Of a stretch of 26,899 bases of DNA, positions 2,985 through 25,660 are shown piece by piece. The stretch is taken from positions 1 to 26,899 of IMG/VR virus record IMGVR_UViG_3300044707_000421. One strand, given 5' to 3'. Below the pieces are notes generated by a model. It made no database searches. It was given only the letters and a program-made list of their open reading frames with translations, and was not told where the DNA came from. The DNA comes from a virus. Both the position numbers and the translations under genes were made by a program. Every line of letters begins with the position of its first letter. Within the stretch, counting starts at the first letter, position 1.

Positions 2985-3223
2985 ACAGCCTCCTTGAACA
3001 ATTTCGCCTCTGGCCCGCACGGCCCATCCGGCAGCCTGGCGTCGATACAGTACCCTGACCCGTGCGCGCCGCCTTGGCGCAGCATCGTGCAGCGCAGGAT
3101 CGTCTCGCCTTCGTAGGGCCGGGTCAATAGGGCATTCCCGCAGCGTTGGCACTGCTCGCGCTGCTGCCACCACAGGGCCGTTGCCGGGTGGACTCGCAGG
3201 AACTCAGAACGAAGGGTTGCCAT
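2981..3223 (-). CDS. Hypothetical zinc-finger-like protein, 80 residues
   Basis: The protein contains four cysteines in two pairs or half-pairs: CQRC at residues 25-28, then Cys45 (ILRC) and Cys59 (GSGYC), a spacing compatible with one structural zinc site. The C-terminus is GPCGPEAKLFKEAV. Start chosen at ATG 3223 with GAAGAG just upstream; an in-frame ATG three codons earlier (3232) is possible. It overlaps the 3' end of the preceding gene by 20 bases. Function unknown; small zinc-binding proteins in early phage operons often bind nucleic acid or host proteins (inference only). Confidence 0.65.
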   Translation of the reverse strand: MATLRSEFLRVHPATALWWQQREQCQRCGNALLTRPYEGETILRCTMLRQGGAHGSGYCIDARLPDGPCGPEAKLFKEAV

Positions 3224-3614
3224 ACTCTTCATCCTCGTCTGGAAGCTGGATGCCGTGGCGGGCGAGGCGGTCGGCGGCTTGGGCGCGGATGGCGGCGGCA
3301 TAGTGACCTCCAGGCCGTATTTCTCCAAGCCAATCCCAGGCCCTCGACGGGTCGTCCTCACACACCCGCGCACACGCCTCGCGCTCCTCCTGCCGAGCCT
3401 GCTCGGCCATGGCGCAGAACTGCGAGGTCCGCTGGCCCTGGGCGCATTGACGCCAGCCGTCAGCGATCATGCGGTTGCGCTCGGCTGCGGCACCGGCCTC
3501 GTAGGCCAGCTTGAAGAAGCGTTCCAAACGATCCTCGATTGAAGTCGTGTGTACTTCGGGCCAGTTCCAACCAGCCACCAGCGCCATGCGGATGATGTCG
3601 TCTCTACTCAGCAT
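3204..3614 (-). CDS. Hypothetical phage protein, 136 residues
   Basis: The protein begins LSRDDIIRMALVAGW, contains a helical segment with FFKLAYEAGAAAERNR, the phrase EEREACARVCEDD and an AAAIRAQ helix. The combination of an EREACA-x-V-C-E motif and a following AAAIR segment is widespread in small early-region phage proteins, mostly as their C-terminal half, with no known activity. The end is acidic (LPDEDEEYGNPSF). ATG 3614 overlaps the preceding stop by seven bases. Confidence 0.7.
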   Translation of the reverse strand: MLSRDDIIRMALVAGWNWPEVHTTSIEDRLERFFKLAYEAGAAAERNRMIADGWRQCAQGQRTSQFCAMAEQARQEEREACARVCEDDPSRAWDWLGEIRPGGHYAAAIRAQAADRLARHGIQLPDEDEEYGNPSF

Positions 3615-3838
3615 GTGACCCTCATTTCAGGCCAAGGCTTGCACGGGCAAGTCATGTTGGTCGGCGCGTTGCCGCGTCCACAGGCGGGGCAGAGCCAGCC
3701 GGTTGGAGTGATGCCGATTGGGGTTGGCGCAGGGGTGATGGTCAGTGTTGGGCACCACGAAAGGTGCGACCCGGCAAACGCTCCGCAGGCGATGCAGTGC
3801 CTCGGGGGCTGGGCTGCGGTTGTGGGGGTGTCGGTCAT
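3608..3838 (-). CDS. Hypothetical double zinc-ribbon protein, 76 residues
   Basis: Two cysteine clusters are visible: CIACGAFAGSHLSWC near the N-terminus (C-x2-C ... C) and CPACGRGNAPTNMTCPC towards the C-terminus (C-x2-C-x9-C-x-C), separated by a Pro/Thr-rich linker. This is the layout of two small zinc ribbons joined by a flexible linker, a fold used for nucleic-acid or protein binding. No specific family recognised. Start ATG 3838 forms an ATGA overlap with the tiny gene upstream. Confidence 0.7.
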   Translation of the reverse strand: MTDTPTTAAQPPRHCIACGAFAGSHLSWCPTLTITPAPTPIGITPTGWLCPACGRGNAPTNMTCPCKPWPEMRVTC

Positions 3839-4375: not shown

Positions 4376-4581
4376 TTGCGAACCTCCGTCGTCATCGTGG
4401 TCGGAGTGGCCTTCGACACGCGATACCGCTCGCGGCGCACAGGGTGTCCGGGCCTGCGCAGCAGCCAGTGCAGCGCACGACGCCACCAGCGCGTGTCGCG
4501 GGCGGAGACCGTGATCCAGTCGCCAACCTCCACGCCGTGTCCTGTCGCGGTGGTAAGCGTGATCGGTGTGTGCTTGCTCAT
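4372..4581 (-). CDS. Hypothetical basic protein, 69 residues
   Basis: The protein reads SKHTPITLTTATGHGVEVGD, then WITVSARDTRWWRRALHWLL and an arginine-rich stretch before a Thr-rich end. The GVEVGDWITV phrase looks like a small beta-barrel strand pair, and the WWRRALHWLL segment like an amphipathic basic helix. A nucleic-acid-binding role is conceivable but unproven. Start ATG 4581 and stop are both within ATGA overlaps. Confidence 0.65.
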   Translation of the reverse strand: MSKHTPITLTTATGHGVEVGDWITVSARDTRWWRRALHWLLRRPGHPVRRERYRVSKATPTTMTTEVRK

Positions 4582-4850
4582 GTCTTCTCTCCTTCCGCTT
4601 TGGCGATGGCGGCGCGGGCCTTCTCATGCAGATGCGGTACAACATCGCAGTGCAGACCATCGCTGAGAATTGCCTTCAACGCCTCCAGCAGTTCCGGCGC
4701 AGCGGCGATCAGGCTGGCTGACTCCTTCGTATACCCCCAGTCTTCGTAATCGAAAAGGATTTCAGGCCCGTCAACGCGGTACATGAACTTCCCACTAGAA
4801 CTTTTTCGTGGCCGATCAGAGATTTCCCACGGCCCCGGTGTGTGCCTCAT
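4578..4850 (-). CDS. Small phage protein of the TPGPW / AAPELL / AEGE type (copy 2)
   Basis: A 90-residue protein with the complete layout of the family: RHTPGPWEISDR at the N-terminus, ASLIAAAPELLEALKAIL in the middle and ARAAIAKAEGEKT at the end. Compared with the copy at 2763-2984 it has a longer central loop (YRVDGPEILFDYEDWGY). The family is abundant in phages of Gram-negative bacteria without known function. The start at ATG 4850 overlaps the previous stop; the upstream in-frame extension is Arg-rich and looks non-coding. Confidence 0.8.
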   Translation of the reverse strand: MRHTPGPWEISDRPRKSSSGKFMYRVDGPEILFDYEDWGYTKESASLIAAAPELLEALKAILSDGLHCDVVPHLHEKARAAIAKAEGEKT

Positions 4851-5242
4851 TTCGGTTCTCCTTCCGCCCGTGCGATGGCGGCGCGGGCCGCTTGCAGCGG
4901 CACATTGGTTTCGTGGCCCCAAGGCTCTGCGTAGTAGTAAATCGGGTAGACCTTGCGGAACTCTTTTTCCAAGTTCTTCAACGCCTCCAGCAGTTCCGGA
5001 TACAGCGCAGCGCGGCGAGCGGCTTCATCCTTGGCGGCTTGGGCTTCCTTGCTCGCAAGCTGTCGCGCCGCAAACTCCCTGTTCCACTCGGCGCTCCGAG
5101 CCTCCCGCTTCGCCCACACGGTGGGCGGGTGATGCGTCTTGCAGTACCACTTCCCAAGGTGTTCGTACTTGGCGTTGCGGTCGCAGGCGTATTGCGCAAA
5201 GACACTTCCGACCATGCGGCAGCACTTGTGTTGCTCGGTCAT
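4847..5242 (-). CDS. Hypothetical protein: N-terminal zinc-finger-like part plus AEGE-type tail
   Basis: A 131-residue protein that seems to be a fusion. Residues 1-40 contain cysteines and histidines (EQHKCCRMVG, then CDRNAKYEHLGKWYCKTHHP), compatible with a zinc site; residues 45-80 are a long charged helix (EAQAAKDEAARRA); residues 80-131 carry the operon's recurrent module (YPELLEALKNLEKEF ... AARAAIARAEGEPK). Thus the C-terminal module seen in copies at 2763, 4578 and 5239 is here attached to a different N-terminus. Function unknown. ATGA overlaps on both sides. Confidence 0.7.
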   Translation of the reverse strand: MTEQHKCCRMVGSVFAQYACDRNAKYEHLGKWYCKTHHPPTVWAKREARSAEWNREFAARQLASKEAQAAKDEAARRAALYPELLEALKNLEKEFRKVYPIYYYAEPWGHETNVPLQAARAAIARAEGEPK

Positions 5243-5478
5243 TTCGCTTCTCCTTCTGCTTTGGCGATGGCGGCGCGGGCGTACAACCCCATGCCTTCCC
5301 GTGTGCTTCCAGAATCCTGCGCGGCTAGGCTGATGCAGTGCAGTGCGTTCAACAGTTCCCCGTTCAGGCCATGCAAACGGCGCAGTTCGGCGGCGGCAAT
5401 ATCAGCGAAATCGTTGGCGTCTTCAAGCGGCGATGCCAGCGCATCAGCCAGCCGCAGGGCTTCGGGTTGTTTATTCAT
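5239..5478 (-). CDS. Small phage protein with AEGE-type tail (copy 4)
   Basis: A 79-residue protein: N-terminal NKQPEALRLADALASPLEDA, central AAAELRRLHGLNGELLNALH, and C-terminal YARAAIAKAEGEAK. It shares the C-terminal segment with the proteins at 2763, 4578 and 4847 but has a different front part, of the LADxLE type often found next to ELRRL helices in phage proteins. It has its own ribosome-binding site (AAGGAG about five bases before ATG 5478), unlike most neighbours which rely on overlap; this is the first gene downstream of the proposed cassette insertion. Confidence 0.75.
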   Translation of the reverse strand: MNKQPEALRLADALASPLEDANDFADIAAAELRRLHGLNGELLNALHCISLAAQDSGSTREGMGLYARAAIAKAEGEAK

Positions 5479-5523
5479 GTGTTCTCCTTGGTGTTGTGTG
5501 CCGCCAGTGCGGCCTATTTCACG

Positions 5524-5808
5524 TTAGGCCACAGCTTCATTCGTGGCGCCTTCCTCTTCCTCGGGCGGCGGCGGCTCCATGCCGTGCGGGCAATAGCGCA
5601 CGCAGTCAGCGTGCCCAGGCCCGCCCGGCTCGCCATAGTCGTACTCGCCGGTCTTCAGGTCCACGTACACCGCCTGTGAGCAGTTGTCCCAATCCAGCGG
5701 GCAGCGTCGGCCACCCTCGCTCTGCCACAGTCTCGCGCCGTGGCTCACCTGGCCTTCAGTGCCCGCCAGTTGCATTGCGGCATTTATCAGGTCGTTCAGT
5801 GCTTGCAT
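5524..5808 (-). CDS. Hypothetical cysteine-rich protein (94 residues) inside the putative cassette
   Basis: The protein starts QALNDLINAAMQLAGTEG, then LWQSEGGRRCPLDWDNCSQA, the segment VYVDLKTGEYDYGEPGGPGH and CVRYCPHGMEPPPPEEEEG. Four cysteines (CPLDWDNC and CVRYC) could bind metal. It has an upstream AGGAG near 5818 and ATG at 5808, leaving 93 bases to the preceding gene and 45 to the next one, unlike the rest of the operon. Its orientation matches the phage operon, so it can be expressed from the phage promoter. I know no function; the sequence style is also compatible with an ordinary small phage protein. Confidence 0.65.
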   Translation of the reverse strand: MQALNDLINAAMQLAGTEGQVSHGARLWQSEGGRRCPLDWDNCSQAVYVDLKTGEYDYGEPGGPGHADCVRYCPHGMEPPPPEEEEGATNEAVA

Positions 5809-5890
5809 GCTTTGCTCCTATCGCTTCGGAAACGGTGGCCTAACTGGTCGCTCAAGCGGACCGCCTTCGGCGGCCCGCTTAGCTCCAACG
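5524..5890. mobile_element. Putative integron gene cassette (367 bp) inserted in the phage operon
   Basis: The right end is the attC-like site at 5838-5896, whose cleavage point would be G5890^TTCGGC. The left end is G5523^TTAGGC (5523-5529), a perfect GTTRRRY core. If the segment 5524-5890 is circularised, its core becomes GTTAGGC, the exact complement of the attC outer box GCCTAAC at 5838-5844, as expected of a true cassette; the TTCGGC now following position 5890 would be host sequence at the insertion point. It contains one complete gene (5808-5524, minus strand) whose TAA stop uses the terminal TTA. The segment sits at the one place where the otherwise gapless chain of overlapping genes is interrupted. 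Odd point: the gene runs opposite to the usual orientation relative to attC. No integrase gene is in the window. Confidence 0.6.
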
Positions 5891-5896
5891 TTCGGC
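5838..5896 (+). repeat. attC-like integron recombination site (59 bp)
   Basis: Outer boxes GCCTAAC (5838-5844, fits RYYYAAC) and GTTCGGC (5890-5896, fits GTTRRRY except one base). Inner boxes GCTCAAGCG (5850-5858) and CGCTTAGC (5876-5883) are complementary apart from one additional base in the left box, the extrahelical base that gives attC its polarity. Between them is a short perfect hairpin, CCGCC-TTC-GGCGG. The length of 59 bases equals the classical '59-base element'. There is no T-run, which argues against an intrinsic terminator. The order of features fixes the polarity as the plus strand. Basis: seen in sequence; the attC architecture is established knowledge. Confidence 0.75.
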
Positions 5897-5901
5897 CTCT
5901 T

Positions 5902-6201
5902 TCAGCCAAAAGAGCGCCGCGCGTCCGCTTCGTTGTCGAACAGCCGGCATCCCCACACCGTCAGCCGCTTGGCGTCGAAGCCGCCCGGTTGTTCTTTCCA
6001 GCGCCCGCTGTCAACGCACGCTTTACGGCACGCCTCGGGCCATGTCTCAGCCTCAACCTTGCCCTCGAGTTTTGCGCCTGCGCTCTCTCCTGTGGCTCTA
6101 TAGCCTTCGCTCCAGACTTCCCAGGTCACAGTGTGCGTCGGGTGCTGCTCGTCAATGATCTCCAGGCGCTCCACGAAGCGCAGATTGTTTGTCGGGGTCA
6201 T
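5902..6201 (-). CDS. Hypothetical phage protein, 99 residues
   Basis: The protein begins TPTNNLRFVERLEII and continues with HTVTWEVWSEGYRATGES, EAETWPEACRKACVDSG and a C-terminal WGCRLFDNEADARRSFG. The NLRFVER opening is common among short phage proteins. It looks like a compact alpha/beta protein with three cysteines. Its TGA lies only five bases from the outer box of the attC-like element, but it falls outside the proposed cassette. ATG 6201 is in an ATGA overlap with the upstream gene. Function unknown. Confidence 0.7.
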   Translation of the reverse strand: MTPTNNLRFVERLEIIDEQHPTHTVTWEVWSEGYRATGESAGAKLEGKVEAETWPEACRKACVDSGRWKEQPGGFDAKRLTVWGCRLFDNEADARRSFG

Positions 6202-6641
6202 GTGTTTCGCTCCTTCAGCGCCTGCTCGATGGCGCGGGCGATTTCCCTCAGAGCGTCGGAGTCGTCACAGATCAGTAGCAGTTGCTCTTGGCGGGCAAGC
6301 TCGGCTAGTTCCTCCTCCGTCAGCGACACCCACTCGCGGCGGGGTGGGTGGGCGTAGAGGGGCATGCCAGCAACGCCGTCTCGCATCTGCTTGATGTAGC
6401 GGAACTCGGGATGTCGCCCAGTCGGCCAGATATAGCCAAACGGCTCCTGCTCCGGCTCCTGCTGCGCCAGCGCGGCGCGGAGGGCTTCCTCAAGATGAAG
6501 CACCGGCACATGCGCGAGAGTCACGGCCTCTCTCGTCGCTTTGTTCACCTTGTTGCCGAACGGCGGCACGGCCATCCATTGGCGCTTGAACTCTTGAACA
6601 TGCGCCAGCGCCTGCTGGGCGGCGGCTCTCAGATCATTCAT
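6198..6641 (-). CDS. Hypothetical phage protein, 147 residues
   Basis: Start ATG 6641 is supported by a strong GAAGGAGG site nine bases upstream; the longer open frame has no such site. The protein opens with a helix (NDLRAAAQQALAHVQEF), has EQEPFGYIWPTGRHPEF, then MPLYAHPPRREWVSLTEEEL and ends with AIARAIEQALKER-type helix (EIARAIEQALKERNT). The PLYxHPPRREWVxLTxEE phrase followed by an ARAIEQALK end is a recurring building block of small proteins in phages of Gram-negative hosts. No activity is known. Confidence 0.8.
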   Translation of the reverse strand: MNDLRAAAQQALAHVQEFKRQWMAVPPFGNKVNKATREAVTLAHVPVLHLEEALRAALAQQEPEQEPFGYIWPTGRHPEFRYIKQMRDGVAGMPLYAHPPRREWVSLTEEELAELARQEQLLLICDDSDALREIARAIEQALKERNT

Positions 6642-6826
6642 TCCCCCGCCTCCTTCAAATAACCCGTCAACCGCTTGATCTTGCTCTCGTAGTACCGGCA
6701 TAAGCCATCGGCATATTCCCTACTCGACTGCGCCGACAGCAGCCCGCGCTTGGCGTCCTCCAGCTCGCGGGCGGCGAGGACCAGGGCGGCGGGTGGCGAG
6801 AGCCAACGCTTCAAGGTTTCGATCAC
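6638..6826 (-). CDS. Hypothetical protein, 62 residues, GTG start
   Basis: The start is GTG at 6826, placed in a GTGA overlap with the upstream stop and seven bases after AAGGAGG; the upstream extension of the frame is low-complexity. The product (IETLKRWLSPPAALVLAARE, then a coiled-coil-like segment SREYADGLCRYYESKIKRL) is helical with one cysteine. Function not recognised. Confidence 0.65.
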   Translation of the reverse strand: MIETLKRWLSPPAALVLAARELEDAKRGLLSAQSSREYADGLCRYYESKIKRLTGYLKEAGE

Positions 6827-7017
6827 TTCGTCACCTCCTTCAGCAGTTCCATCCGCTCGCGCGCAGCGCGCAGGGCGCAATACCGCTGGTGCAGCCGCTC
6901 CACGAACGTCACGCGGCGCGGGCCGAATAGTTCGGCGTCGAGCATCGCCTTGACCTCATCCTCACTCAGCCGATGCAGCACGGCGTTGAGCGCGCGCCAG
7001 TTTGTTTGCCTTGTCAC
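6823..7017 (-). CDS. Hypothetical phage protein of the FVERLHQRY type, 64 residues
   Basis: The segment LSEDEVKAMLDAE followed by RRVTFVERLHQRYCALRAAR and ERMELLKEV is a pattern seen in many small phage proteins: a helix with E-x-V-x-x-M-L-D-x-E, then an LHQRY-x-x-LRAxRER helix. The role is unknown. Start: GTG at 7017 is preferred because AAAGGA stands six bases upstream; a TTG two codons earlier (7023) abuts the same site too closely. It overlaps the preceding gene by 56 bases, the longest overlap among the small genes. Confidence 0.7.
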   Translation of the reverse strand: MTRQTNWRALNAVLHRLSEDEVKAMLDAELFGPRRVTFVERLHQRYCALRAARERMELLKEVTK

Positions 7018-7150
7018 GGTCAATCCTTTCTTGCAATGTGTCCACAGCCCTCACCGCACGCGCCAGCGCCTTGTGCGCCGACCCATACGCCCGCTTGCAC
7101 AGCCGCAACTCGGCTCGGGCCACCTTCAACTTGTCCTGTAGCGTGTTCAT
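6962..7150 (-). CDS. Hypothetical basic helical protein, 62 residues
   Basis: The sequence is nearly all helix-forming and very basic (NTLQDKLKVARAELRLCKRA, AHKALARAVRAVDTLQERID, RDKANKLARAQRRAAS). It looks like a short coiled coil with a positively charged end and might bind nucleic acid or dimerise; neither is shown. ATG 7150 lies in an ATGA overlap with the helicase stop, so translation is probably coupled to the helicase. Confidence 0.65.
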   Translation of the reverse strand: MNTLQDKLKVARAELRLCKRAYGSAHKALARAVRAVDTLQERIDRDKANKLARAQRRAASAE

Positions 7151-8445
7151 TTCAGCGCCTCCAGCGCAAGTGATGCAAGACTACGCTTGTCTTGCAGAGA
7201 TGTCAAAATCTTTTTGTCAATGGTGTTGTCGGTCAGCAGCACATAGTTCCACACCTCTCGCGCCTGGCCGCTGCGGTGCAGCCGGCCGATGGCCTGCTCG
7301 TACAACTCCAGCGACCACGGCAGCGACAGCCACACCATGTGGTGCCCGCCGTGCTGCAGGTTCAGGCCGTGGCCGGCGCTGGCCGGGTGCGCCAGCAGCA
7401 CCTCGACCTTGCCGGCGTTCCATGCATCGATGGCCCCGGCCGTCTTGACCTCAACGGCCTGCGGCAAGCGGCGCAGCAACTCGTCGCGCTGCGCAACGTA
7501 CTGATACCAGACGATGGTCGGCGCGCGCTGGTTCTCGGCCAGCAAGTCTTCCAGCGCGTCGTACTTGTGCGATGACAGCAAACGCGCTTGGTCGCCGGTG
7601 TAGAGGAACCCAGCGGCAAGCTGCTGGAGCTTCTGCGTCACGACCGCCGCGCTCTCGGCCACCGCCGTCTCGTCGGGAAACTGCAGCACGAAGTTCTTGC
7701 GCATCTCCTCGTACTCGCGCATCTCCATCGTGAGCGGCACCTCGACCGTGTGCAGCGGCGGGAGCTTGTCCTTGTACTCGCCAGGCTCCAACAGGAACGT
7801 CCACGGCTTGACGCGCTTCATCACGCGCTCCAGCGACCCCGGCATGGCCTCCCACTCGGTGTGCGTGCCCCGCACACGCTGGAAGAAATACTGCTGCTGG
7901 AACGCGCCCTTGCTGCGGCCGAGCATGGTCTGGTCAACTATCTTGCACTGGCCGAAGACATCCTCCAGGCCGTTGCTGGTGAACGAGCCGGTCAGGCCCC
8001 AGCGCACCTCCATGTCCTTGATGACCTTCTCCAGCGCCTTGAACCGCTTGCCGCTGGGGTTCTTCAGCCGCGTGAGTTCGTCAAACACGACGCCGTTGAA
8101 CTCGCTCAGGTCGAGGTCGGCGGCCCACTGCAGGTTGTCGTAGTTCAGCACCACCGCGTCGGCGTCGCGGGCGTACAACGCCGCGATGCGCTGCGTGGGC
8201 GAGCCCACGGCCACGCGCACCTTGAGGTCGGGCGTCCACTTCGCGGCCTCGACTGGCCACACATGCTCGGCCACGCGCAGCGGCGCGAGCACCAGCCAGC
8301 GCGTGCTCTCGTTTTGCACCATGTCGCGCATGGCCGTGAGCGTGATTGCGGTCTTGCCCGCGCCGACCGGCGCCAGCACCAGCGCGCGGTCGTGCTCGTA
8401 GAGGAAGTCAGCGGCTTGGTTCTGGTACTCGCGCAATGAAAGCAT
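7147..8445 (-). CDS. SNF2-like superfamily 2 DNA helicase/translocase
   Basis: A 432-residue protein with the motor motifs of SF2 ATPases: Walker A APVGAGKT (25-32), motif Ia LVLAPLRV, Walker B-like FDELTRLKN (121-129, DELT in place of DEAH), motif III LTGSFTSN (151-158), and motif VI YEQAIGRLHRSGQ (382-394) in the SNF2 style. It is compact, with both RecA-like lobes and little else, as is typical for phage versions. These proteins translocate on double-stranded DNA and probably act in replication or recombination. Start ATG 8445 has AAGGAGG upstream and overlaps the VRR-NUC gene by 38 bases; helicase next to VRR-NUC is a known phage association. Confidence 0.93.
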   Translation of the reverse strand: MLSLREYQNQAADFLYEHDRALVLAPVGAGKTAITLTAMRDMVQNESTRWLVLAPLRVAEHVWPVEAAKWTPDLKVRVAVGSPTQRIAALYARDADAVVLNYDNLQWAADLDLSEFNGVVFDELTRLKNPSGKRFKALEKVIKDMEVRWGLTGSFTSNGLEDVFGQCKIVDQTMLGRSKGAFQQQYFFQRVRGTHTEWEAMPGSLERVMKRVKPWTFLLEPGEYKDKLPPLHTVEVPLTMEMREYEEMRKNFVLQFPDETAVAESAAVVTQKLQQLAAGFLYTGDQARLLSSHKYDALEDLLAENQRAPTIVWYQYVAQRDELLRRLPQAVEVKTAGAIDAWNAGKVEVLLAHPASAGHGLNLQHGGHHMVWLSLPWSLELYEQAIGRLHRSGQAREVWNYVLLTDNTIDKKILTSLQDKRSLASLALEALK

Positions 8446-8695
8446 CAACGTCCTCCTTAGACCACACGATTTCGTAGTCGCACCCCAGCCCCTTGATCTC
8501 GTCGAGGAAGACGCGCTGCAGCGGCGACAGCCGCCCGCCCATCTGCTTGACCTCAACGAACCAGATGCGCCCGCCTGGCAGCACGACGATGCGGTCGCTC
8601 ACGCCCCGGTGGGCGGGGCTCACGAACTTGTACGCCCGCCCGCCAGCGTCCTTGACGCGGCGAACGAGATAGGCTTCTATGTCTTTTTCCAGCAT
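8408..8695 (-). CDS. VRR-NUC domain nuclease
   Basis: A 95-residue stand-alone VRR-NUC protein (PD-(D/E)XK fold). Visible catalytic elements: GVSDRIVVLPGG with Asp34, FVEVK with Glu48 and Lys50, and GGRLSPLQ with Gln60. Members cut branched or flap DNA; phage versions usually sit beside an SNF2 helicase, as here, and probably process replication or recombination intermediates. It is the first gene of the minus-strand early operon. ATG 8695 has no clear ribosome-binding site, and the best promoter would start transcription on or next to the ATG. Confidence 0.92.
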   Translation of the reverse strand: MLEKDIEAYLVRRVKDAGGRAYKFVSPAHRGVSDRIVVLPGGRIWFVEVKQMGGRLSPLQRVFLDEIKGLGCDYEIVWSKEDVDAFIARVPEPSR

Positions 8696-8701
8696 GGCCC
8701 C

Positions 8702-8729
8702 ATCGTAACACGAAAAAACTTCTTGACAA
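8702..8729 (-). promoter_or_regulatory. Sigma-70-like promoter for the minus-strand early operon
   Basis: On the minus strand TTGTCA (8729-8724) is followed after 16 bases by TACGAT (8707-8702, four of six matches to TATAAT). The -35 box overlaps that of the opposite promoter because TTGACAA/TTGTCAA is almost self-complementary. The predicted start point is at or one to two bases from the VRR-NUC ATG at 8695. The -10 box is only moderate, so the call is less certain than for the plus-strand promoter. Confidence 0.5.
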
Positions 8730-8750
8730 GCCCCAGCGTAGGGCTATGAT
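8723..8750 (+). promoter_or_regulatory. Strong sigma-70 promoter for the replication operon
   Basis: A perfect TTGACA (8723-8728), a 16-base spacer and TATGAT (8745-8750, five of six). Transcription would begin near 8757, giving a leader of about 28 bases before the first gene at 8785. AGCCCC (8728-8733 region, just after the -35 box) and GGGGCT (8752-8757) form an inverted repeat bracketing the -10 box, a plausible operator, though no regulator is identifiable. Confidence 0.8.
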
Positions 8751-8784
8751 CGGGGCTCCATCAACTGAACTGGAGTCTTCTGAA

Positions 8785-8955
8785 ATGCAGACCATCAGCA
8801 TCCATCACGTCAAGAGCGTGGTCATCACGGAGCCCGCGACCAAGGGGCCGCCCGAGTGCCGCTACAACCACCAGCAGATCAAGCTGGTGTTGGAGAGCGG
8901 CGACATCATCGAGATCGACCTCTACGCCGACAAGCTGGAGAACCTCAATGGCTGA
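8785..8955 (+). CDS. Hypothetical protein, 56 residues, first gene of the replication operon
   Basis: The product (QTISIHHVKSVVITEPATKG, then a segment IKLVLESGDIIEIDLYADKL) looks like a small all-beta protein with alternating hydrophobic residues and an acidic character. It starts at ATG 8785, nine bases after GGAG, and overlaps the DUF2800 gene by eight bases. Position right behind the strongest promoter indicates early, abundant expression. I do not recognise a family; the longer upstream frame would begin before the predicted transcription start and is rejected. Confidence 0.7.
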   Translation: MQTISIHHVKSVVITEPATKGPPECRYNHQQIKLVLESGDIIEIDLYADKLENLNG

Positions 8956-10054
8956 ACATTCCAAGATCGTCGGCGGCTCGACCGCCGACCGCGTGATCGC
9001 CTGTCCCGGCAGCGTGGAACTGGTGCAGCGCATGCCGCCGCAGGTCGAGAACAAGTACATGGCCCAGGGCACCATGCTGCACGGCTGCATGGAAGACCTG
9101 CTGGCCGAGAACGGCGACATGGGCGACATCATCGCCAAGCACAATCTCGACGACGACCAGGCCGACAAGCTGCAGTTCTGCCTTGGCGCGCTGGACGAGA
9201 TCGACCCCGACCAGAAGATGACCTTCGTGCAGGAGGCGCAGGTCGGCTTTGCTGGCGTGCCGGAACTCGACGGCGTGTTCGGTCACGCCGACCTGATCGG
9301 CCGGCTGGGCGGGCGCGTCGTCGTGCTGGACTGGAAGTTCGGTGACGGCGTGATGGTCGAGGCCGAGGAGTCCGCGCAGGGCCTGTTCTACGCTGCTGCG
9401 GCCAAGCGCACGCTTGCGTGGGCCTTTGACGGTGCGGCCGAGGTCGAGATCGTCATCGTGCAGCCGCCGCACGTCCGGCGCTGGGTCACCACGGTGTCGC
9501 GCGTGGAAGAGTTTGAACGGCAGTTGATCGCCGCGGTCAAGACGGCCAGCCGCCCCGACGCGCCGCTGGCGATGGGCGACCATTGCCGCTGGTGCCAGGC
9601 CAAGCCGATATGCCCGCAGTACAACGGGGCTGTGGCCCGCGCCACGCACCGGGCGCTGGACACGCTCAACCCCGAGGAACTGGGCCAGGCGCTGGCGCTG
9701 GCCGAGAAGCTGGAAGACTTCATCGCAGAGGCGCGGGCGCTCGCGCAGCAGCGGCTTGAGAAAAGTCTGCCCGTGCCGGGGTATAAACTGGTAGCCAAGC
9801 AAGCGCGCCGGAAGTGGGTCAAGCCCGACGACGCGGCGGCGTGGCTCAAGCAGCAGGGTGTCGAGCCCTACACGCAGGAGATCCTCTCGCCGGCTCAGGC
9901 CGAGACGGCGTTGAAAAAGAGCAAGCTGGCATTGCCCGACGGTCTCGTCGTCGCAGTGTCGAGCGGCAACACCATCGCGCAGGAGTCCGACAAGCGGCCG
10001 GCCGTGGTGCTCATCGGGCAGCAACTCGTTGCAGCCCTTTCCAAACTGTCCTGA
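8948..10054 (+). CDS. DUF2800-type RecB-like nuclease (PD-(D/E)XK with cysteine cluster)
   Basis: A 368-residue protein with the pattern of RecB/AddB-like nucleases: His45 (GTMLHGCMEDLL), Asp115 (GHADLIG), and VVVLDWKFG with Asp128 and Lys130. Four cysteines, Cys19 (ACPGS) and CRWCQAKPIC (213, 216, 222), match the iron-sulphur cluster arrangement of this group. DUF2800 proteins occur in phage replication blocks together with polymerase, VRR-NUC and SNF2 helicase, just as in this window. Likely role: exonuclease in recombination-dependent replication; direct activity is inferred. It overlaps the small gene before it. Confidence 0.88.
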   Translation: MAEHSKIVGGSTADRVIACPGSVELVQRMPPQVENKYMAQGTMLHGCMEDLLAENGDMGDIIAKHNLDDDQADKLQFCLGALDEIDPDQKMTFVQEAQVGFAGVPELDGVFGHADLIGRLGGRVVVLDWKFGDGVMVEAEESAQGLFYAAAAKRTLAWAFDGAAEVEIVIVQPPHVRRWVTTVSRVEEFERQLIAAVKTASRPDAPLAMGDHCRWCQAKPICPQYNGAVARATHRALDTLNPEELGQALALAEKLEDFIAEARALAQQRLEKSLPVPGYKLVAKQARRKWVKPDDAAAWLKQQGVEPYTQEILSPAQAETALKKSKLALPDGLVVAVSSGNTIAQESDKRPAVVLIGQQLVAALSKLS

Positions 10055-18407: not shown

Positions 18408-18635
18408 TTAGCGGGTGACGTACCGGCCGGCGTCATATTCGGCGAGCACGGCCGGGCCGATGGTGTTCGGCGTGGCATCGAACCCGAACACCGTAACGGT
18501 GCCGCTGATACCGCGCGCGGCGTCAACGAACGTCGCGGGCACGTCGGCCATGACGTCATCGGTGGGCGCGAACGTGATCTCAAGGACTTGAGCGGCGCCG
18601 TAGTCGCGGCCGGTACGATAGGTTACGGTGTTCAT
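18408..18635 (-). CDS. Hypothetical protein, 75 residues, first gene of the second minus-strand operon
   Basis: The product (NTVTYRTGRDYGAAQVLEIT, FAPTDDVMADVPATFVDAAR, VTVFGFDATPNTIGPAVLAE, YDAGRYVTR) looks like a small beta-rich protein. Low arginine content and an acidic character separate it from the basic genes downstream. ATG 18635 has only a weak purine-rich stretch upstream. I recognise the general style of an early phage protein but no function. Confidence 0.7.
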   Translation of the reverse strand: MNTVTYRTGRDYGAAQVLEITFAPTDDVMADVPATFVDAARGISGTVTVFGFDATPNTIGPAVLAEYDAGRYVTR

Positions 18636-19271: not shown

Positions 19272-19754
19272 ATGTTCAAAAGCTTGCCGCTCACGACCCG
19301 AGATGTGCGCGCGACTGAGGCGGTGCTGAACCGCATCTACGACGCTGCGCGGCTAGGGCTCAAGGGGGACGCACTGGCGCTGGCAAGCGGGCTGCTGCCG
19401 GCCGAGTACCGGCGTTTGCGCGAACTGGACCCGATTGCCGACCTGGCCGAGCAGAAAGGGCGCGCGGACGGCGAGATGGCCCTGTCCAAGAAGTTGCACG
19501 AGGCGGCCGAGATGGGCGACGCCAAGGCGGCGCTGGAAATCCTCAAGCACGCCCACGGTTGGGTGGCCAAGCAGCAGGTGCAGATCGACGTGGCGCAGCA
19601 GATCAGCATCACGGCGGCGCTGGAGGCGGCGCAACGGCGCGTGAGTGAAGTGATAGAACTGGAGACGCAGGATGCAAGAGCCACGCTTCTCAGCAGCCCA
19701 AGAGCAGAGCCTGATGGCCAAGCTCTGGTCGCCCGAGATAGCCAACGATCCTGA
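19272..19754 (+). CDS. terS: Terminase small subunit
   Basis: A 160-residue protein. The N-terminal half contains RATEAVLNRIYDAARLG and the basic helices of a putative DNA-binding domain; the second half has EMALSKKLHEAAEMGDAKAA, LEILKHAHGWVAKQ and a helical oligomerisation segment (DVAQQISITAALEAAQRRV). The AL-x-x-LEx-x-x-x-GW segment followed by QVQIDVAQQIS resembles phage small terminases, and the gene directly precedes and overlaps the large subunit. It would recognise phage DNA for packaging, possibly at the repeats upstream. The ATG has no ribosome-binding site and lies next to the predicted transcription start. Confidence 0.85.
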   Translation: MFKSLPLTTRDVRATEAVLNRIYDAARLGLKGDALALASGLLPAEYRRLRELDPIADLAEQKGRADGEMALSKKLHEAAEMGDAKAALEILKHAHGWVAKQQVQIDVAQQISITAALEAAQRRVSEVIELETQDARATLLSSPRAEPDGQALVARDSQRS

Positions 19755-21204
19755 GAAGTTCGTCCTGTTCGTCTTCCCTTGGGGGGAAGCCGGCACGCCG
19801 CTGGCCAAGTACAAAGGCCCGCGCGCCTGGCAGCGCAAGGTGCTGCGCGACATCCGCGACCACATCGCGCGCAACGACTACGCGGCTGCGTATGAGGTGC
19901 TGCGCATGGCCATCGCCTCGGGCCGGGGCATCGGCAAGTCGGCGCTGGTGTCGTGGCTGGTGCTGTGGATGCTCACCACGCGAATAGGCGCGAGTGTGCT
20001 AATCAGCGCCAACAGCGAGGCGCAGCTACGCTCGATCACTTGGGCCGAAATCACCAAGTGGCTGGCGATGCTCATCAGCAGCCACTGGTGGGAGATAAGC
20101 GCCACGCGGATCACCCCGGCCAAGTGGTTGAGCGAAATCGTGGAGCGCGATCTGCGCAAGGGCACGCGGTACTGGGGCGCGGAGGGGCGGCTGTGGTCGG
20201 AAGAGAACCCGGACGCCTACGCGGGCCTGCACAACGCAGACGGCGTGCTGCTGATCTTTGACGAGGCCAGCGGCATACCGGACGTGATATGGGACGTTAG
20301 CCAGGGCTTTTGGACGGAGAACACGCCCAACCGCTTCTGGCTGGCGTTCAGCAACCCGCGGCGGGCGCAGGGGTACTTCTACGAATGCTTCCACGCCAAG
20401 CGGGATTTCTGGACGACGCAGCAGATCGACTCGCGCACGGTGGAGGACACCGACAAGGCGGTCTACGAGCAGATCATCGCGGAGTACGGCGAGGACAGCC
20501 CGCAGGCCAGGATCGAGGTCTACGGGCAGTTTCCCACAACGGACGACGACCAGTTCATCCCCCAGAGCCTGGTGGCCGAGGCGATGGCCAGAGAGCCGTG
20601 GCGCGACCAGAGCGCGCCCATCGTCATCGGCGTGGACCCGGCGCGCTCGGGCGCGGACAGCACGGTCATAGCCGTGCGGCAGGGGCGCAATATCATCACT
20701 TTGAGGCGCTACCGGGGCGACGACACCATGACGGTCGTCGGGCACGTCATCCAGGCCATCGAGGAGTTCCGGCCGGCGCTGACGATGATCGACGAGGGTG
20801 GGCTGGGCTACGGCATCCTTGACCGTCTGACCGAACAGCGGTATAAGGTGCGCGGCGTGAACTTCGGCTGGAAGTCCACGAAGCCCGTCATGTGGGGCAA
20901 CAGGCGCGCGGAGCTATGGGGCGCGCTCAAGGACTGGCTCAAGACCGCCAGCCTGCCACAGGACAAGCAGCTTCGGGACGACCTGACCGGCCCGCGCACC
21001 AAGCCCGACTCGTCGGGCAAGATCTTTCTGGAGTCGAAGAAGGACATGAAGGCCCGTGGGCTGGCGTCCCCTGACGCCGCAGACGCCATCGCCGTGACGT
21101 TCGCGTTCCCGGTGAGCAGCGACGTTGGCAGCGCCTTCTTCGGCACGGTTTCCAAGTTCTCCGCGCTGCCGACCCGCCACCACTGGTCCGCTGCCGGCCA
21201 CTGA
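19672..21204 (+). CDS. terL: Terminase large subunit (ATPase-nuclease)
   Basis: A 510-residue packaging motor. ATPase: Walker A-like SGRGIGKS (83-90) and Walker B LLIFDEAS (193-200), with the coupling segment LAFSNPRR. Nuclease (RNase-H fold): IGVDPARSG with Asp322, TMIDEGG with Asp374 and SPDAADA with Asp468/Asp471. All catalytic acidic residues are present. It pumps DNA into proheads and cuts it with TerS help. Using ATG 19672 it overlaps terS by 83 bases; ATG 19714 (AKLWSPEIAND start) is an alternative giving a 41-base overlap. The portal gene follows after eight bases. Confidence 0.95.
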   Translation: MQEPRFSAAQEQSLMAKLWSPEIANDPEKFVLFVFPWGEAGTPLAKYKGPRAWQRKVLRDIRDHIARNDYAAAYEVLRMAIASGRGIGKSALVSWLVLWMLTTRIGASVLISANSEAQLRSITWAEITKWLAMLISSHWWEISATRITPAKWLSEIVERDLRKGTRYWGAEGRLWSEENPDAYAGLHNADGVLLIFDEASGIPDVIWDVSQGFWTENTPNRFWLAFSNPRRAQGYFYECFHAKRDFWTTQQIDSRTVEDTDKAVYEQIIAEYGEDSPQARIEVYGQFPTTDDDQFIPQSLVAEAMAREPWRDQSAPIVIGVDPARSGADSTVIAVRQGRNIITLRRYRGDDTMTVVGHVIQAIEEFRPALTMIDEGGLGYGILDRLTEQRYKVRGVNFGWKSTKPVMWGNRRAELWGALKDWLKTASLPQDKQLRDDLTGPRTKPDSSGKIFLESKKDMKARGLASPDAADAIAVTFAFPVSSDVGSAFFGTVSKFSALPTRHHWSAAGH

Positions 21205-21212
21205 GGCACATC

Positions 21213-23258
21213 ATGGCACGACCAACCACTCAGCAACGACTGGCCGACGTACACCAGGAGGCGATGCGCGAGTTCGACAACATCCAGTCGGCCTTGCGCG
21301 ACGAGCGGCTGCAGTGCCTGCAGGACCGCCGGTTCTACAGCATCGCCGGAGCCCAGTGGGAAGGGCCGTTGGGCGCGCAGTTTGAGAACAAGCCCAAGAT
21401 GGAGGTCAACAAGATCGCGCTGGCCGTCCAGCGCATTTTCTCCGAGTACCGGTCGAACCGCGTCACCGTGGACTTCGTGTCCAAGGAGGGCAAGGAGTAC
21501 GACAGCCTTGCCGACGCCTGCGACCAGTTGTTCCGGGCCGACGAACAGGACTCCAACGCCGAGGAGGCATACGACAACGCCTTCGAGGAGGCGGTGGGCG
21601 GCGGGTTCGGCGCGTTCCGGCTGCGCACGGTCTACGAGAACGAAGAGGACGACGAGGACGAGAAGCAGCGCGTCAGGATCGAGCCGATCTTCGACGCGGA
21701 CAGCAGCGTGTTCTTCGACCTCCAGGCCAAGCGCCAGGACAAGGCCGACGCGACGAAGTGCTTCGTGCTGACCAGCATGACCCGCGACGCCTACAAGGCC
21801 GAGTACGGCGACGACCCGGCGACGTGGCCCAAGGAGATCCACCAGTACGAGTTCGACTGGCTGACGCCCGACGTGGTGTACGTCGCGGAATACTACTGCG
21901 TCGAGATGGTGCCCGACACCGTGCGCGTCTTCAGGAGCCTCGACGGCGAGGAGGAGCGGTACCGGGACAGCGAACTCGACGACGAGAAGCTGTCCGAACT
22001 GACCGCCATCGGCAGCGTCGAGGTGCGTCAGAAGCGCATCAAGGTGCGCAAGGTGCACAAGTACGTCCTCAGCGGCGCGAAGGTGCTGGAGGACTCGGGC
22101 TACATCGTCGGCAAGCACATCCCGATCATTCCGGTCTACGGTAAGCGGTGGTTCGTGGACAACGTGGAGCGGTGCTGCGGCCATGTGCGCCTGGCCAAGG
22201 ACGCGCAGCGGCTCAAGAACATGCAGTTGTCCAAGATGGCCGAGATCGCCGCTCTGTCGAGCGTCGAGAAGCCCATTCTGACCCCCGAGCAGGTCGCCGG
22301 CCACCAGGTGATGTGGCAGGACGACAACCTGCGCAACTACCCGTACCTGCTGATCAACCCGATCAGCGGCCCGGACGGCTCCACGCAGGTCGCGGGGCCG
22401 GTGGCGTACACCAAGAGCCCGAATCTGCCGCCCGCGATGGCCGCGCTGCTGCAGATCACCGACGTGGACATCAAGGAGGTCTTGGGCAACCAGGAGCAGG
22501 GCGACAAGATCGTCGCCAACGTCAGCGGCAAGGCCGTGCAGATGGTCCAGCAGCGGCTGGACATGCAGTCGTTCATCTACGTCTCGAACTACGCCAAGGC
22601 CAAGCGCCGCTGCGGCGAGGTGTGGCTGTCGATGGCCAAGGAGACATACGTCGAGCCGGGGCGCAAGATGAAGGGCCTCGGGTCGCAGAACGAGGTTGGC
22701 TCCATCGAACTGATGAAGCCGATGGTGAGCGACGAGGGCGAACTGGAGTACGAGAACGATCTGAGCGAGGCCGAGTTCGACCTCGCCGTCGAGATCGGGC
22801 CGTCGTTCCGCAGCCAGCGCGAGTCCATCGTGCAGTCGCTGACCGGCCTGATCGCCATCACCCAAGACCCGCAGACGCAATCGGTGCTGCAGGCGATGGT
22901 CATCCTCAACATGGAGGGTGAGGGGCTGGAGCAGACGCGCGAGTACTTCCGGCGCAAGCTGGTGGACATGGGTGCGCTGGAGCCCGAAGAGAAGGACATG
23001 GAGCGCCTGCAGGCCGCCGCGCAGCAGCAAGACCCGAACAACACGCTGCTCCAGGCTGCGGCCGAGGAGGCGCTGGCCAAGGCGGCCAAGGCTCGGGCAG
23101 AGGTGGTCAAGACTGGCGCTGAGAGCGAACTCACGCAGGCCAAGACGATGGAAACGCTGTCCAAGATCGAGAGCGCCCAAGTCAAGGACACGCTCGCGGT
23201 CATGGACACGCTGGCGGCACAGCAGCCGCCCGTCACGCCGCCGCGACCTGAACTCTGA
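21213..23258 (+). CDS. Portal protein, P22 type
   Basis: A 681-residue protein with the look of P22-like portals: the N-terminal RDERLQCLQDRRFYSIAGAQW region, EVNKIALAVQRIFSEYRSNR, the long middle with IIPVYGKRWFVDNVERCCGH, and a C-terminal highly helical, Ala/Glu/Lys-rich barrel (AAEEALAKAAKARAEVVKTG). Twelve copies would form the ring at one capsid vertex through which DNA enters and to which the tail attaches. Placement after the large terminase and before scaffold and coat is canonical. Its size is in the upper range for portals, as usual for the P22 group with C-terminal extensions. Confidence 0.93.
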   Translation: MARPTTQQRLADVHQEAMREFDNIQSALRDERLQCLQDRRFYSIAGAQWEGPLGAQFENKPKMEVNKIALAVQRIFSEYRSNRVTVDFVSKEGKEYDSLADACDQLFRADEQDSNAEEAYDNAFEEAVGGGFGAFRLRTVYENEEDDEDEKQRVRIEPIFDADSSVFFDLQAKRQDKADATKCFVLTSMTRDAYKAEYGDDPATWPKEIHQYEFDWLTPDVVYVAEYYCVEMVPDTVRVFRSLDGEEERYRDSELDDEKLSELTAIGSVEVRQKRIKVRKVHKYVLSGAKVLEDSGYIVGKHIPIIPVYGKRWFVDNVERCCGHVRLAKDAQRLKNMQLSKMAEIAALSSVEKPILTPEQVAGHQVMWQDDNLRNYPYLLINPISGPDGSTQVAGPVAYTKSPNLPPAMAALLQITDVDIKEVLGNQEQGDKIVANVSGKAVQMVQQRLDMQSFIYVSNYAKAKRRCGEVWLSMAKETYVEPGRKMKGLGSQNEVGSIELMKPMVSDEGELEYENDLSEAEFDLAVEIGPSFRSQRESIVQSLTGLIAITQDPQTQSVLQAMVILNMEGEGLEQTREYFRRKLVDMGALEPEEKDMERLQAAAQQQDPNNTLLQAAAEEALAKAAKARAEVVKTGAESELTQAKTMETLSKIESAQVKDTLAVMDTLAAQQPPVTPPRPEL

Positions 23259-24397: not shown

Positions 24398-25660
24398 ATG
24401 GCCAACGCCTTCTCAAAGGAAGAGCGCGTCGCGTTTGAAGACCTGCTTGCAGGCTTCCAAGACGCCCTCGTACTGTCCCGCAACGTCTCGATCTACAACA
24501 CGGATCAGACGATGATGGAGCGGACCAACAACGTCATCTGGCGTCCGATGCCCTACATCGCTGTGTCGTACAACGGCACGGACATGACGGGCAACTTCGA
24601 CGACTACACCCAGCTCACCGTTCCCGCGACCATCGGCTACCAGAAGTCGGTGCCGTGGATCATGTCGGCCACCGAGCTGCGTGATGCGCTGCAAGAGGGT
24701 CGCCTTGGCGATGCCGCCAAGCAGAAACTCGCCTCGGACATCAACGTCGCCGTGCTGACCGTCGCAGGCCAGCAGGGGACGCTGGCGATCAAGCGTTCGG
24801 CCGCCACTGGCTTCGATGATGTGGCGCTTGTCGAAGCGGTGATGAACGAGACGGGCGTTCCGATGGACAGCCGGTATCTCGCGCTCTCGACGCGCGACTA
24901 CAACGGCATGGCCAGCGACCTGAGCAAGGCGTCCCGTTCGTTCGGCAACGAGATCAGCGACAGCGCGCTGCGTCGGGCGTTCGTGGGCCAGATCGCTTCG
25001 TTCGAGACGTACAAGCTGGACTACGCCCAGCGCAAGGCTGCTGCGGCGGGTGCTGGCATCCAGATCAACACGACGGCAGCGGGCGGGAACTACTACACCC
25101 CGAAGGCCACCTCGACCTCGGCCACGGGCGAGACGAGCAACGTGGACAATCGCTTCCAGACGGTGACGGTCAACTCGACCACGAGCATCGCGGTGGGCGA
25201 CTCGTTCACGATTGCCAACGTCAACGCCGTGCACATGATCACCAAGGAAGACACGGGCCAGCCCAAGACCTTCCGCGTGATCGCCGTGCCGTCGGCCACG
25301 ACGCTCGTGATCAGCCCCCCGCTGATCCCGGCGCAGGCCGGTGTCGATTCGACCGCGCAGTACCAGAACTGCCGGATCACTTCGACCTCGGCAACCGCCG
25401 CGATCACGTTCCTGAACACGACGGCCTCGTACCTGAACTGTTTCTGGCACAAGGACGCCATCGAGCTTTTGCCGGGTCGCTATGCGGTGCCGACAGATGC
25501 CGGTGCGGCCGTGATGCGCGCGAGCACGGATCAGGGTATCGAACTGGTCATGACGAAGCAGTACGACATCAACAACATGAAGACCAAGTACCGATTGGAC
25601 TGCCTCTTCGGTGTGGTGTGCAAGCAGCCCGAAATGGCTGGCGTGCTGATGTTCAACTGA
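24398..25660 (+). CDS. Major capsid (coat) protein, P22 coat type
   Basis: A 420-residue protein with features of P22 gp5-like coats: an N-terminal helix with VAFEDLLAGFQDALVLSRNV, VIWRPMPYIAVSYNGTDMTG, the conserved-looking VPATIGYQKSVPWIMSATEL and, in the middle, an inserted beta-rich domain (residues about 225-330, Thr/Ser-rich, including VTVNSTTSIAVGDSFTIANV). The C-terminus contains YDINNMKTKYRLDCLFGVVC, the usual coat-protein end. It builds the icosahedral shell with the scaffold upstream. It has its own promoter and leader, and a close-by structural gene follows after 19 bases. Confidence 0.93.
   Translation: MANAFSKEERVAFEDLLAGFQDALVLSRNVSIYNTDQTMMERTNNVIWRPMPYIAVSYNGTDMTGNFDDYTQLTVPATIGYQKSVPWIMSATELRDALQEGRLGDAAKQKLASDINVAVLTVAGQQGTLAIKRSAATGFDDVALVEAVMNETGVPMDSRYLALSTRDYNGMASDLSKASRSFGNEISDSALRRAFVGQIASFETYKLDYAQRKAAAAGAGIQINTTAAGGNYYTPKATSTSATGETSNVDNRFQTVTVNSTTSIAVGDSFTIANVNAVHMITKEDTGQPKTFRVIAVPSATTLVISPPLIPAQAGVDSTAQYQNCRITSTSATAAITFLNTTASYLNCFWHKDAIELLPGRYAVPTDAGAAVMRASTDQGIELVMTKQYDINNMKTKYRLDCLFGVVCKQPEMAGVLMFN

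Follow-up and report, generated by a model that had tools for sequence, protein, structure and literature searches.

We identified an integron gene cassette (positions 5524-5890) in a phage early operon, where it occupies a G|TT site at the downstream end. Very probably it is a genuine cassette and belongs to a pool in circulation between phages, for which phage integrons provide the machinery. The identity of the attC site, the empty site, the cassette boundaries, the cassettes shared between contigs, the inversion of their genes and a separate branch of integron integrases (IntI) are all read from sequence.

The window (the whole stretch of DNA that was analyzed, 26,899 bases) is the entire IMG/VR virus record IMGVR_UViG_3300044707_000421. 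PHROGs matches in the window include, on the plus strand, the terminase large subunit (19672-21204; phrog_2, 2.5e-42), the portal protein (21213-23258; phrog_156, 2.2e-137) and the major head protein (24398-25660; phrog_283, 6.2e-77), together with DNA polymerase, primase, helicase, exonuclease and holin, a set that marks the record as a tailed phage. A search of the whole record for a tyrosine recombinase or IntI found none, and the intI gene that would lie near the cassette in a complete integron is absent from it. One 35-residue match (E 0.049, from two near-identical queries) was considered as a decayed IntI and taken as chance. No similar DNA was found in collections of named phages and plasmids.

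The cassette, its attC site and its flanks

The attC site lies at 5838-5896 on the plus strand, with outer boxes at 5838-5844 and 5890-5896. Its architecture is that described in a first-pass annotation of this DNA, with outer and inner boxes, spacers, a left inner box that is one base longer and a central hairpin, and a scan of the window for this architecture returned the single site. The right outer box, GTTCGGC, is one base off the usual GTTRRRY, and the outer boxes therefore pair at six of seven positions. The left junction, GTTAGGC, is present at 5523-5529 as annotated, and circularization would restore pairing at all seven.

The annotation had proposed scoring the site with an attC covariance model and folding its bottom strand. 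Our model, R1, was drawn from 20 stretches around TIGR02249 integrase genes in genomes that belong to the same order as Pseudothauera rhizosphaerae; of 150 genomes sampled from this order, 63 carry an integrase gene of this type. It was trained on 30 short attCs from the cassette side of bacterial intI, with zero phage sequence, and the training alignment shows strong pair covariation. Applied to its source loci, R1 found 128 sites in 19 of the 20, all on the strand pointing away from intI; 30 of these are the training sites, and it is the remaining sites that back the model's sense of direction. R1 scores 5838-5896 at 54.9 bits (E 2.8e-12), and the next-best score anywhere in the window is 11.1 bits. 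Folded as single-stranded DNA, the bottom strand reaches -20.6 kcal/mol (z -5.0) and the top strand -17.5 kcal/mol (z -3.6). A chance hairpin is ruled out by these z-scores and the R1 score; the shuffled control of our pattern scan gave 2 matches in 292,685 bases. An Rfam search with the region found no match up to E 1. Judged by sequence and predicted fold, 5838-5896 is an attC site, and its recombination by IntI is predicted. By R1 it is the only attC in the window, where a CALIN has at least two.

The cassette carries a gene for a 94-residue protein (5524-5808, minus strand), preceded by a leader that also lies within the cassette (5809-5837, minus strand). The reading frame closes at the terminal TTA of the cassette and is parted from its neighbors by spacers of 93 and 45 bases, both as annotated. 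It is co-directional with the phage operon and opposite to the attC, where a gene running in the attC direction is typical of cassettes, though not strictly required. Long invariant blocks across eight aligned homologues indicate that the frame is a real gene. The protein has no match in Pfam, and its predicted structure is of low confidence (mean pLDDT 67). The attC and leader together (5802-5895) match an IntI-bearing viral locus, L287, at 83% over 94 bases.

Both boundaries of the cassette, a unit between two G|TT cuts in the plus (attC) orientation, are marked by an empty site and by matches confined to the cassette. The empty site, which the annotation had predicted as a direct joining of base 5523 to base 5891, was found in L161, a 4.5-kb viral contig that shares 240 bases with the window at 96.7% identity and is among 29 viral loci with relatives of the 99-residue protein encoded next to the cassette (5902-6201, minus strand). 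Aligned with the window after removal of 5524-5890, L161 is identical at 132 of 140 bases, and near the cut only position 5893, adjoining the junction, differs. In L161 the end of the 99-residue gene runs straight into the leader of the 79-residue gene that lies on the other side of the insertion in the window (5239-5478, minus strand). Here an attC-like site (25.7 bits, E 6.2e-4) immediately precedes the 99-residue homologue, so that the gene looks like a cassette itself. The 94-residue cassette may thus have entered between the 99-residue cassette and backbone DNA of the phage, on the side expected to hold attI. Another contig, L002, has the same insertion, with 99.7% identity over 1757 bases. 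Two further contigs were rejected as clean empty sites: L014, and L015, which is without the cassette and also without the 99-residue gene despite 94% helicase identity to the window.

The backbone flank of the insertion (5479-5523, minus strand) resembles, weakly and post hoc, the attI-like motif that is described below for phages with IntI. It scores -2.06 against 14.5-37.3 in the 19 training sites, and 12 of 1418 null sites score as high. A search with the attI-like profile across the window found no match.

Homologues of the 94-residue protein occur in ten viral loci and a distant eleventh. Six of these (L003-L008) match window positions 4501-7200 in the cassette and its attC only, with 81.5-87.4% DNA identity over 356-369 bases (L003, L004 and L005 give identical matches); the cassette alone is common to the window and these loci, a unit between different flanks. 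The annotation had suggested searching for the protein among integron cassettes, and homologues do lie inside the attC arrays of L003, L006, L007 and L009, each with several attCs. R1 found no attC near the homologues in L010 and L011, and no homologue was found in named phages. The family is rare in bacteria, with two loci in one search and two of 399 sampled genomes in another, one genome being common to both. One bacterial locus, L074 of Pseudothauera rhizosphaerae (6705-9466), contains the homologue and three attCs adjoining a Phage_integrase gene. The genome of this isolate also has an intact IntI elsewhere and a truncated one, and the strain is a possible laboratory system. In L075 (Variovorax), which likewise has a homologue, R1 found no attC.

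The region of small genes in the window also contains direct repeats at gene ends, one family of 49 bases (2756-2804, 4571-4619, 4840-4888 and 5232-5280) and one of 39 bases (2851-2889, 4669-4707 and 4971-5009), so that several different small proteins have a similar C-terminal end. Copies are found in related contigs as well, and the repeats are possibly a second, homology-based route of gene swapping. The locus L166 has many short repeats at 3150-3690 that match window positions 6440-6480, in or near a 167-residue gene.

Inverted cassettes in viral contigs

Viral contigs in IMG/VR were searched with a pattern made from a single attC end, which matched 44 stretches. R1 was run on 38 of these, the other six lying in contigs already covered, and gave 166 matches (E up to 0.02); another 34 loci, several of them empty or overlapping the first set, gave 106 matches (E up to 0.1). 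We scored gene direction by codon usage in 38 array loci (37 viral plus L074) with 197 attCs and 143 non-redundant intervals, leaving out 15 viral near-duplicates and intervals outside 90-1500 bases (one viral, seven bacterial).

Confident calls placed the gene opposite to the attC in 103 viral intervals and in the same direction in 3, with 20 unsure opposite, 16 unsure same and 1 without an ORF. With a codon model taken from bacterial genes, 82 viral intervals are called opposite and 4 same, another 38 and 18 are unsure, and 1 has no ORF. The 102 bacterial control intervals, in contrast, gave 23 confident calls in the same direction and 5 opposite, with 48 unsure same, 25 unsure opposite and 1 without an ORF. 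Simply taking the longest ORF gives 72 opposite, 19 same, 57 ties and 1 without an ORF in the viral intervals, and 72 same, 12 opposite, 17 ties and 1 without an ORF in the bacterial ones. The opposite direction of the gene in the window, which the annotation reported as odd, is therefore correct as a description but not odd, as inversion is the rule in phages. Similarly, what had been seen as a lone captured cassette is genuine as a cassette but belongs with many other inverted phage cassettes and is no one-off acquisition from an integron of bacteria.

Upstream of the arrays, genes lie for the most part on the strand of the cassette genes in all 29 loci with data (9 of the 38 loci are without data, and some contigs are near-copies), which places the cassettes downstream in an operon. 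Eight further array records encode phage proteins: a portal and a major head protein (G005), a major head protein (G006 and G035), a tape measure and a terminase (G023), a tail protein (G024), a terminase (G030 and G042) and a tape measure (G026). The phrog_2 terminase was found in 15 of 41 records and the phrog_15 terminase in 1 of 23.

The inverted cassettes contain 152 confident ORFs with a median length of 96 residues. Among 50 of these, mainly the longest, Pfam families include DNA methylase (5), the PAPS reductase domain (3) and DHHA1 (3), with single matches to RNA ligase, Mom, D12 methylase, DUF5131 and DUF1643. PHROGs agree with Pfam on the same 50 ORFs, and the leading PADLOC matches are type II methyltransferases (5 members). 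These few family matches suggest that some cassette genes may be used in counter-defence.

Several cassettes are shared by contigs that otherwise differ. L007 and L152 share 472 bases at 99.6% identity, which starts at a G|TT cut and stops a few bases past the next; elsewhere the two records have six common stretches of 181-925 bases at 67-88%. Compared at the level of the loci, L003 shares 394 bases at 99.5% with L019 and L027, likewise bounded by cuts, plus a further stretch (97%) whose order differs. Some cassettes also occur both in IntI-bearing records and in others where no IntI was found (L143 and L287, 564 bases at 95.0%; L150 and L242, 473 bases at 94.7%); each match starts at a cut in the locus that has IntI. 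The 51 shared segments have 204 ends in all, of which 40 fall no more than 12 bases from a cut, compared with 5% for random positions, a clear excess, though most matches are partial.

Integron integrases encoded by phages

Full-length integron integrases above the curated cut-off were found in three of 41 viral records (G016, G025 and G027), and a marginal match in a fourth (G008). Any member of the Phage_integrase family is present in seven of 43 records. The G025 record has, besides IntI, a separate phage integrase and head, tape-measure and tail-fibre proteins, and G016 has a terminase and a tape measure. In G027 a ParB-like protein was all that was seen, so that its phage nature is less sure. 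In G026 (18420-18620; locus L198, with the start of its array also in L041) a short intI relic lies beside a phage attC array, as if the integrase had been lost.

Searching with the three integrases gave 117 viral relatives, of which 79-80 loci were kept. R1 found attCs in 44 of 79 IntI-bearing viral loci, and 168 of 169 matches have the canonical direction relative to intI. The attC stems of these loci covary strongly in an alignment that was fitted to the model. Cassette genes in these loci are again inverted, with 59 confident calls opposite, 2 same, 20 unsure each way and 5 without an ORF, after 17 near-duplicates and intervals outside 90-1500 bases were left out; four loci of the 38-locus array set come from IntI-bearing contigs and are common to both sets. 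The longest-ORF rule shows a weaker contrast here (42 opposite, 21 same, 37 ties and 6 without an ORF).

A recurring motif, present by pattern in 19 of 27 loci, occupies the gap that separates intI from the last cassette, and we call it attI-like from its position only. When its profile was run on arrays without IntI, the best match was in L028 (13.6 bits, E 0.032) and the others scored no higher than shuffled sequence (best 10.2 bits).

In a first tree of 115 IntI rows (reduced from 137 by removing rows at 93% identity or more, after one viral IntI that was too short had been taken out), 31 viral rows form one branch without any of the 58 bacterial rows (SH-aLRT 99); 26 other viral rows fall outside it. 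A second tree of 87 rows, from which 23 distant viral and 7 distant bacterial rows had been removed and to which 2 had been added, recovers the same 31 viral rows with L346 (support 100/99), and class 1 IntI1 groups with the bacterial rows. L346 comes from a genome of the order of P. rhizosphaerae and contains, in a row, attCs, genes that are mostly inverted and include a Dam-type methylase, IntI and Phage_integrase, a layout that we regard as a prophage-like edge. Among the best 30 bacterial matches to the phage integrases with loci opened, L346 alone is closer to this branch than to bacterial rows. Because the viral rows were selected for similarity to phage IntIs, broader sampling may show the branch to be less exclusive. 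Three viral integrases off the main phage branch (L278, L296 and L310) are each accompanied by one confident inverted cassette, and inversion may therefore have arisen or spread more than once.

The collection of 50,697 named phage records gave nine IntI matches, all below 60% identity. Virus Rctr41k (KX853513), from an enrichment culture, has at 4668-5639 a gene with the annotation xerD, which shows 46.6% identity to a phage IntI over 87% of its length. R1 gave no match on phage TJE1 (L315), whose attC type the model does not reach.

A proposed phage form of the integron and its relation to known systems

We propose that a phage-encoded integron would consist of intI, an adjoining attI-like site and an attC array, serving a pool of cassettes among phages. 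As the cassette genes run opposite to the attCs, the phage operon can read through them, and into intI where present, with no need of a Pc promoter; the operon would thus transcribe both cassettes and integrase. IntI is expected to act on the attC bottom strand, which here is the sense strand of the operon, and new cassettes would enter on the attI side, at the operon end furthest from the promoter. The window record has no integrase of its own, and we infer that a helper IntI acted in trans, encoded by the host, by a prophage or by a co-infecting phage.

Several observations count against this explanation: the window has no IntI or clear attI, the empty-site cut has a mismatch beside it, and L015, L010 and L011 are as described above. 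To these are added the 16 unsure viral intervals in the attC direction, the weaker longest-ORF contrast in IntI loci, the limited share of segment ends that lie near a cut and the 26 off-branch IntI rows.

The cassette could instead be a single capture from a bacterial chromosome through a host IntI acting at a secondary site, its reversed gene being accidental. We consider this unlikely. Such a source would be at hand, given intI in 63 of the 150 genomes sampled from the order, and the window attC is close to bacterial attCs by R1; some bacterial cassettes are indeed reversed (5 of 28 confident calls). However, one capture does not account for the same cassette in several viral contigs with different flanks or for inversion as a rule in phage cassettes, and the 94-residue family was found in just two of 399 bacterial genomes, with one locus beside a phage integrase and three attCs. 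It is very improbable that the hairpins are transcription or RNA elements that resemble attC without being recombination sites. They do lie between operon genes, and the window record has no integrase, but their sequence, boxes and bulge fit a model made from bacterial attCs, shared segments start and stop at G|TT, three of 41 records have a full-length IntI, and an empty site exists. Least credible of all is an artefact of assembly or binning that joined bacterial integron DNA to phage contigs. The records are metagenome contigs, many of them fragments, and just 15 of 41 contain the phrog_2 terminase. Yet L002 repeats the insertion at near identity, head, tail or packaging proteins occur in eight further array records and two IntI-bearing ones, bacterial integrons would not supply the inverted polarity, and two bacterial genomes (L074 and L346) have the layout beside a phage integrase gene.

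Beyond the cassette pool, we think it reasonably probable that phages have an integron class of their own, with a separate IntI branch, an attI-like site and turned cassettes. It would be a shared platform for small genes, some of them DNA-modifying, used in trans by phages without an integrase. With the polarity turned, a phage cassette in a bacterial integron would be antisense to Pc, and a bacterial cassette in a phage operon would be antisense as well, so that both pools would be largely insulated from each other. Integrons are known as bacterial devices for gene capture; a version adapted to phages would mean that phages trade ready-made genes by site-specific recombination, besides homologous and illegitimate recombination, and the traded genes would perhaps include counter-defence genes. 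The inverted polarity offers a simple diagnostic and a testable idea for the separation of phage and bacterial cassette pools.

The annotation considered a lone cassette in a phage operon remarkable. The attC is real, but integron parts in phages had already been described: among 10,705 phage genomes, Qi et al. 2023 found 17 attC clusters, three complete integrons and an integrase that had no cassettes, and five of six phage attCs tested recombined with attI1 through IntI1 (PMC9892861). Our loci resemble these integrons and CALINs in having attCs in phages, with and without intI. That study required at least two attCs per cluster, whereas the window has one, and its complete integrons are from Vibrio, P1 and Shewanella phages, with integrases less than 60% identical to that of G025. 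Neither genes inverted against attC nor an IntI branch specific to phages is described in the available sections of the study (PMC9892861). The portions available of PMC11014356, PMC9668308 and PMC11551772 contain nothing like a phage-specific inverted integron, and no report of one was found in the open-access literature, a scope that excludes preprints and most subscription papers. The attC clusters in phages are thus known (PMC9892861), and the inverted, phage-specific form is apparently new, as far as we found.

Sedentary chromosomal integrons in the order of P. rhizosphaerae are similar to the phage ones in attC architecture, in their TIGR02249 IntI and in the divergent placement of intI and attC. 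However, their cassette genes run with the attC (23 against 5 confident calls), and those of phages run against it. The integrons of Treponema, in the sections available of PMC3607928, are like the phage ones in that intI and the cassette genes are co-directional. The two differ in what has been turned: in Treponema it is intI that is turned towards attI, whereas in phages intI and attC keep the canonical arrangement and the cassette genes are turned.
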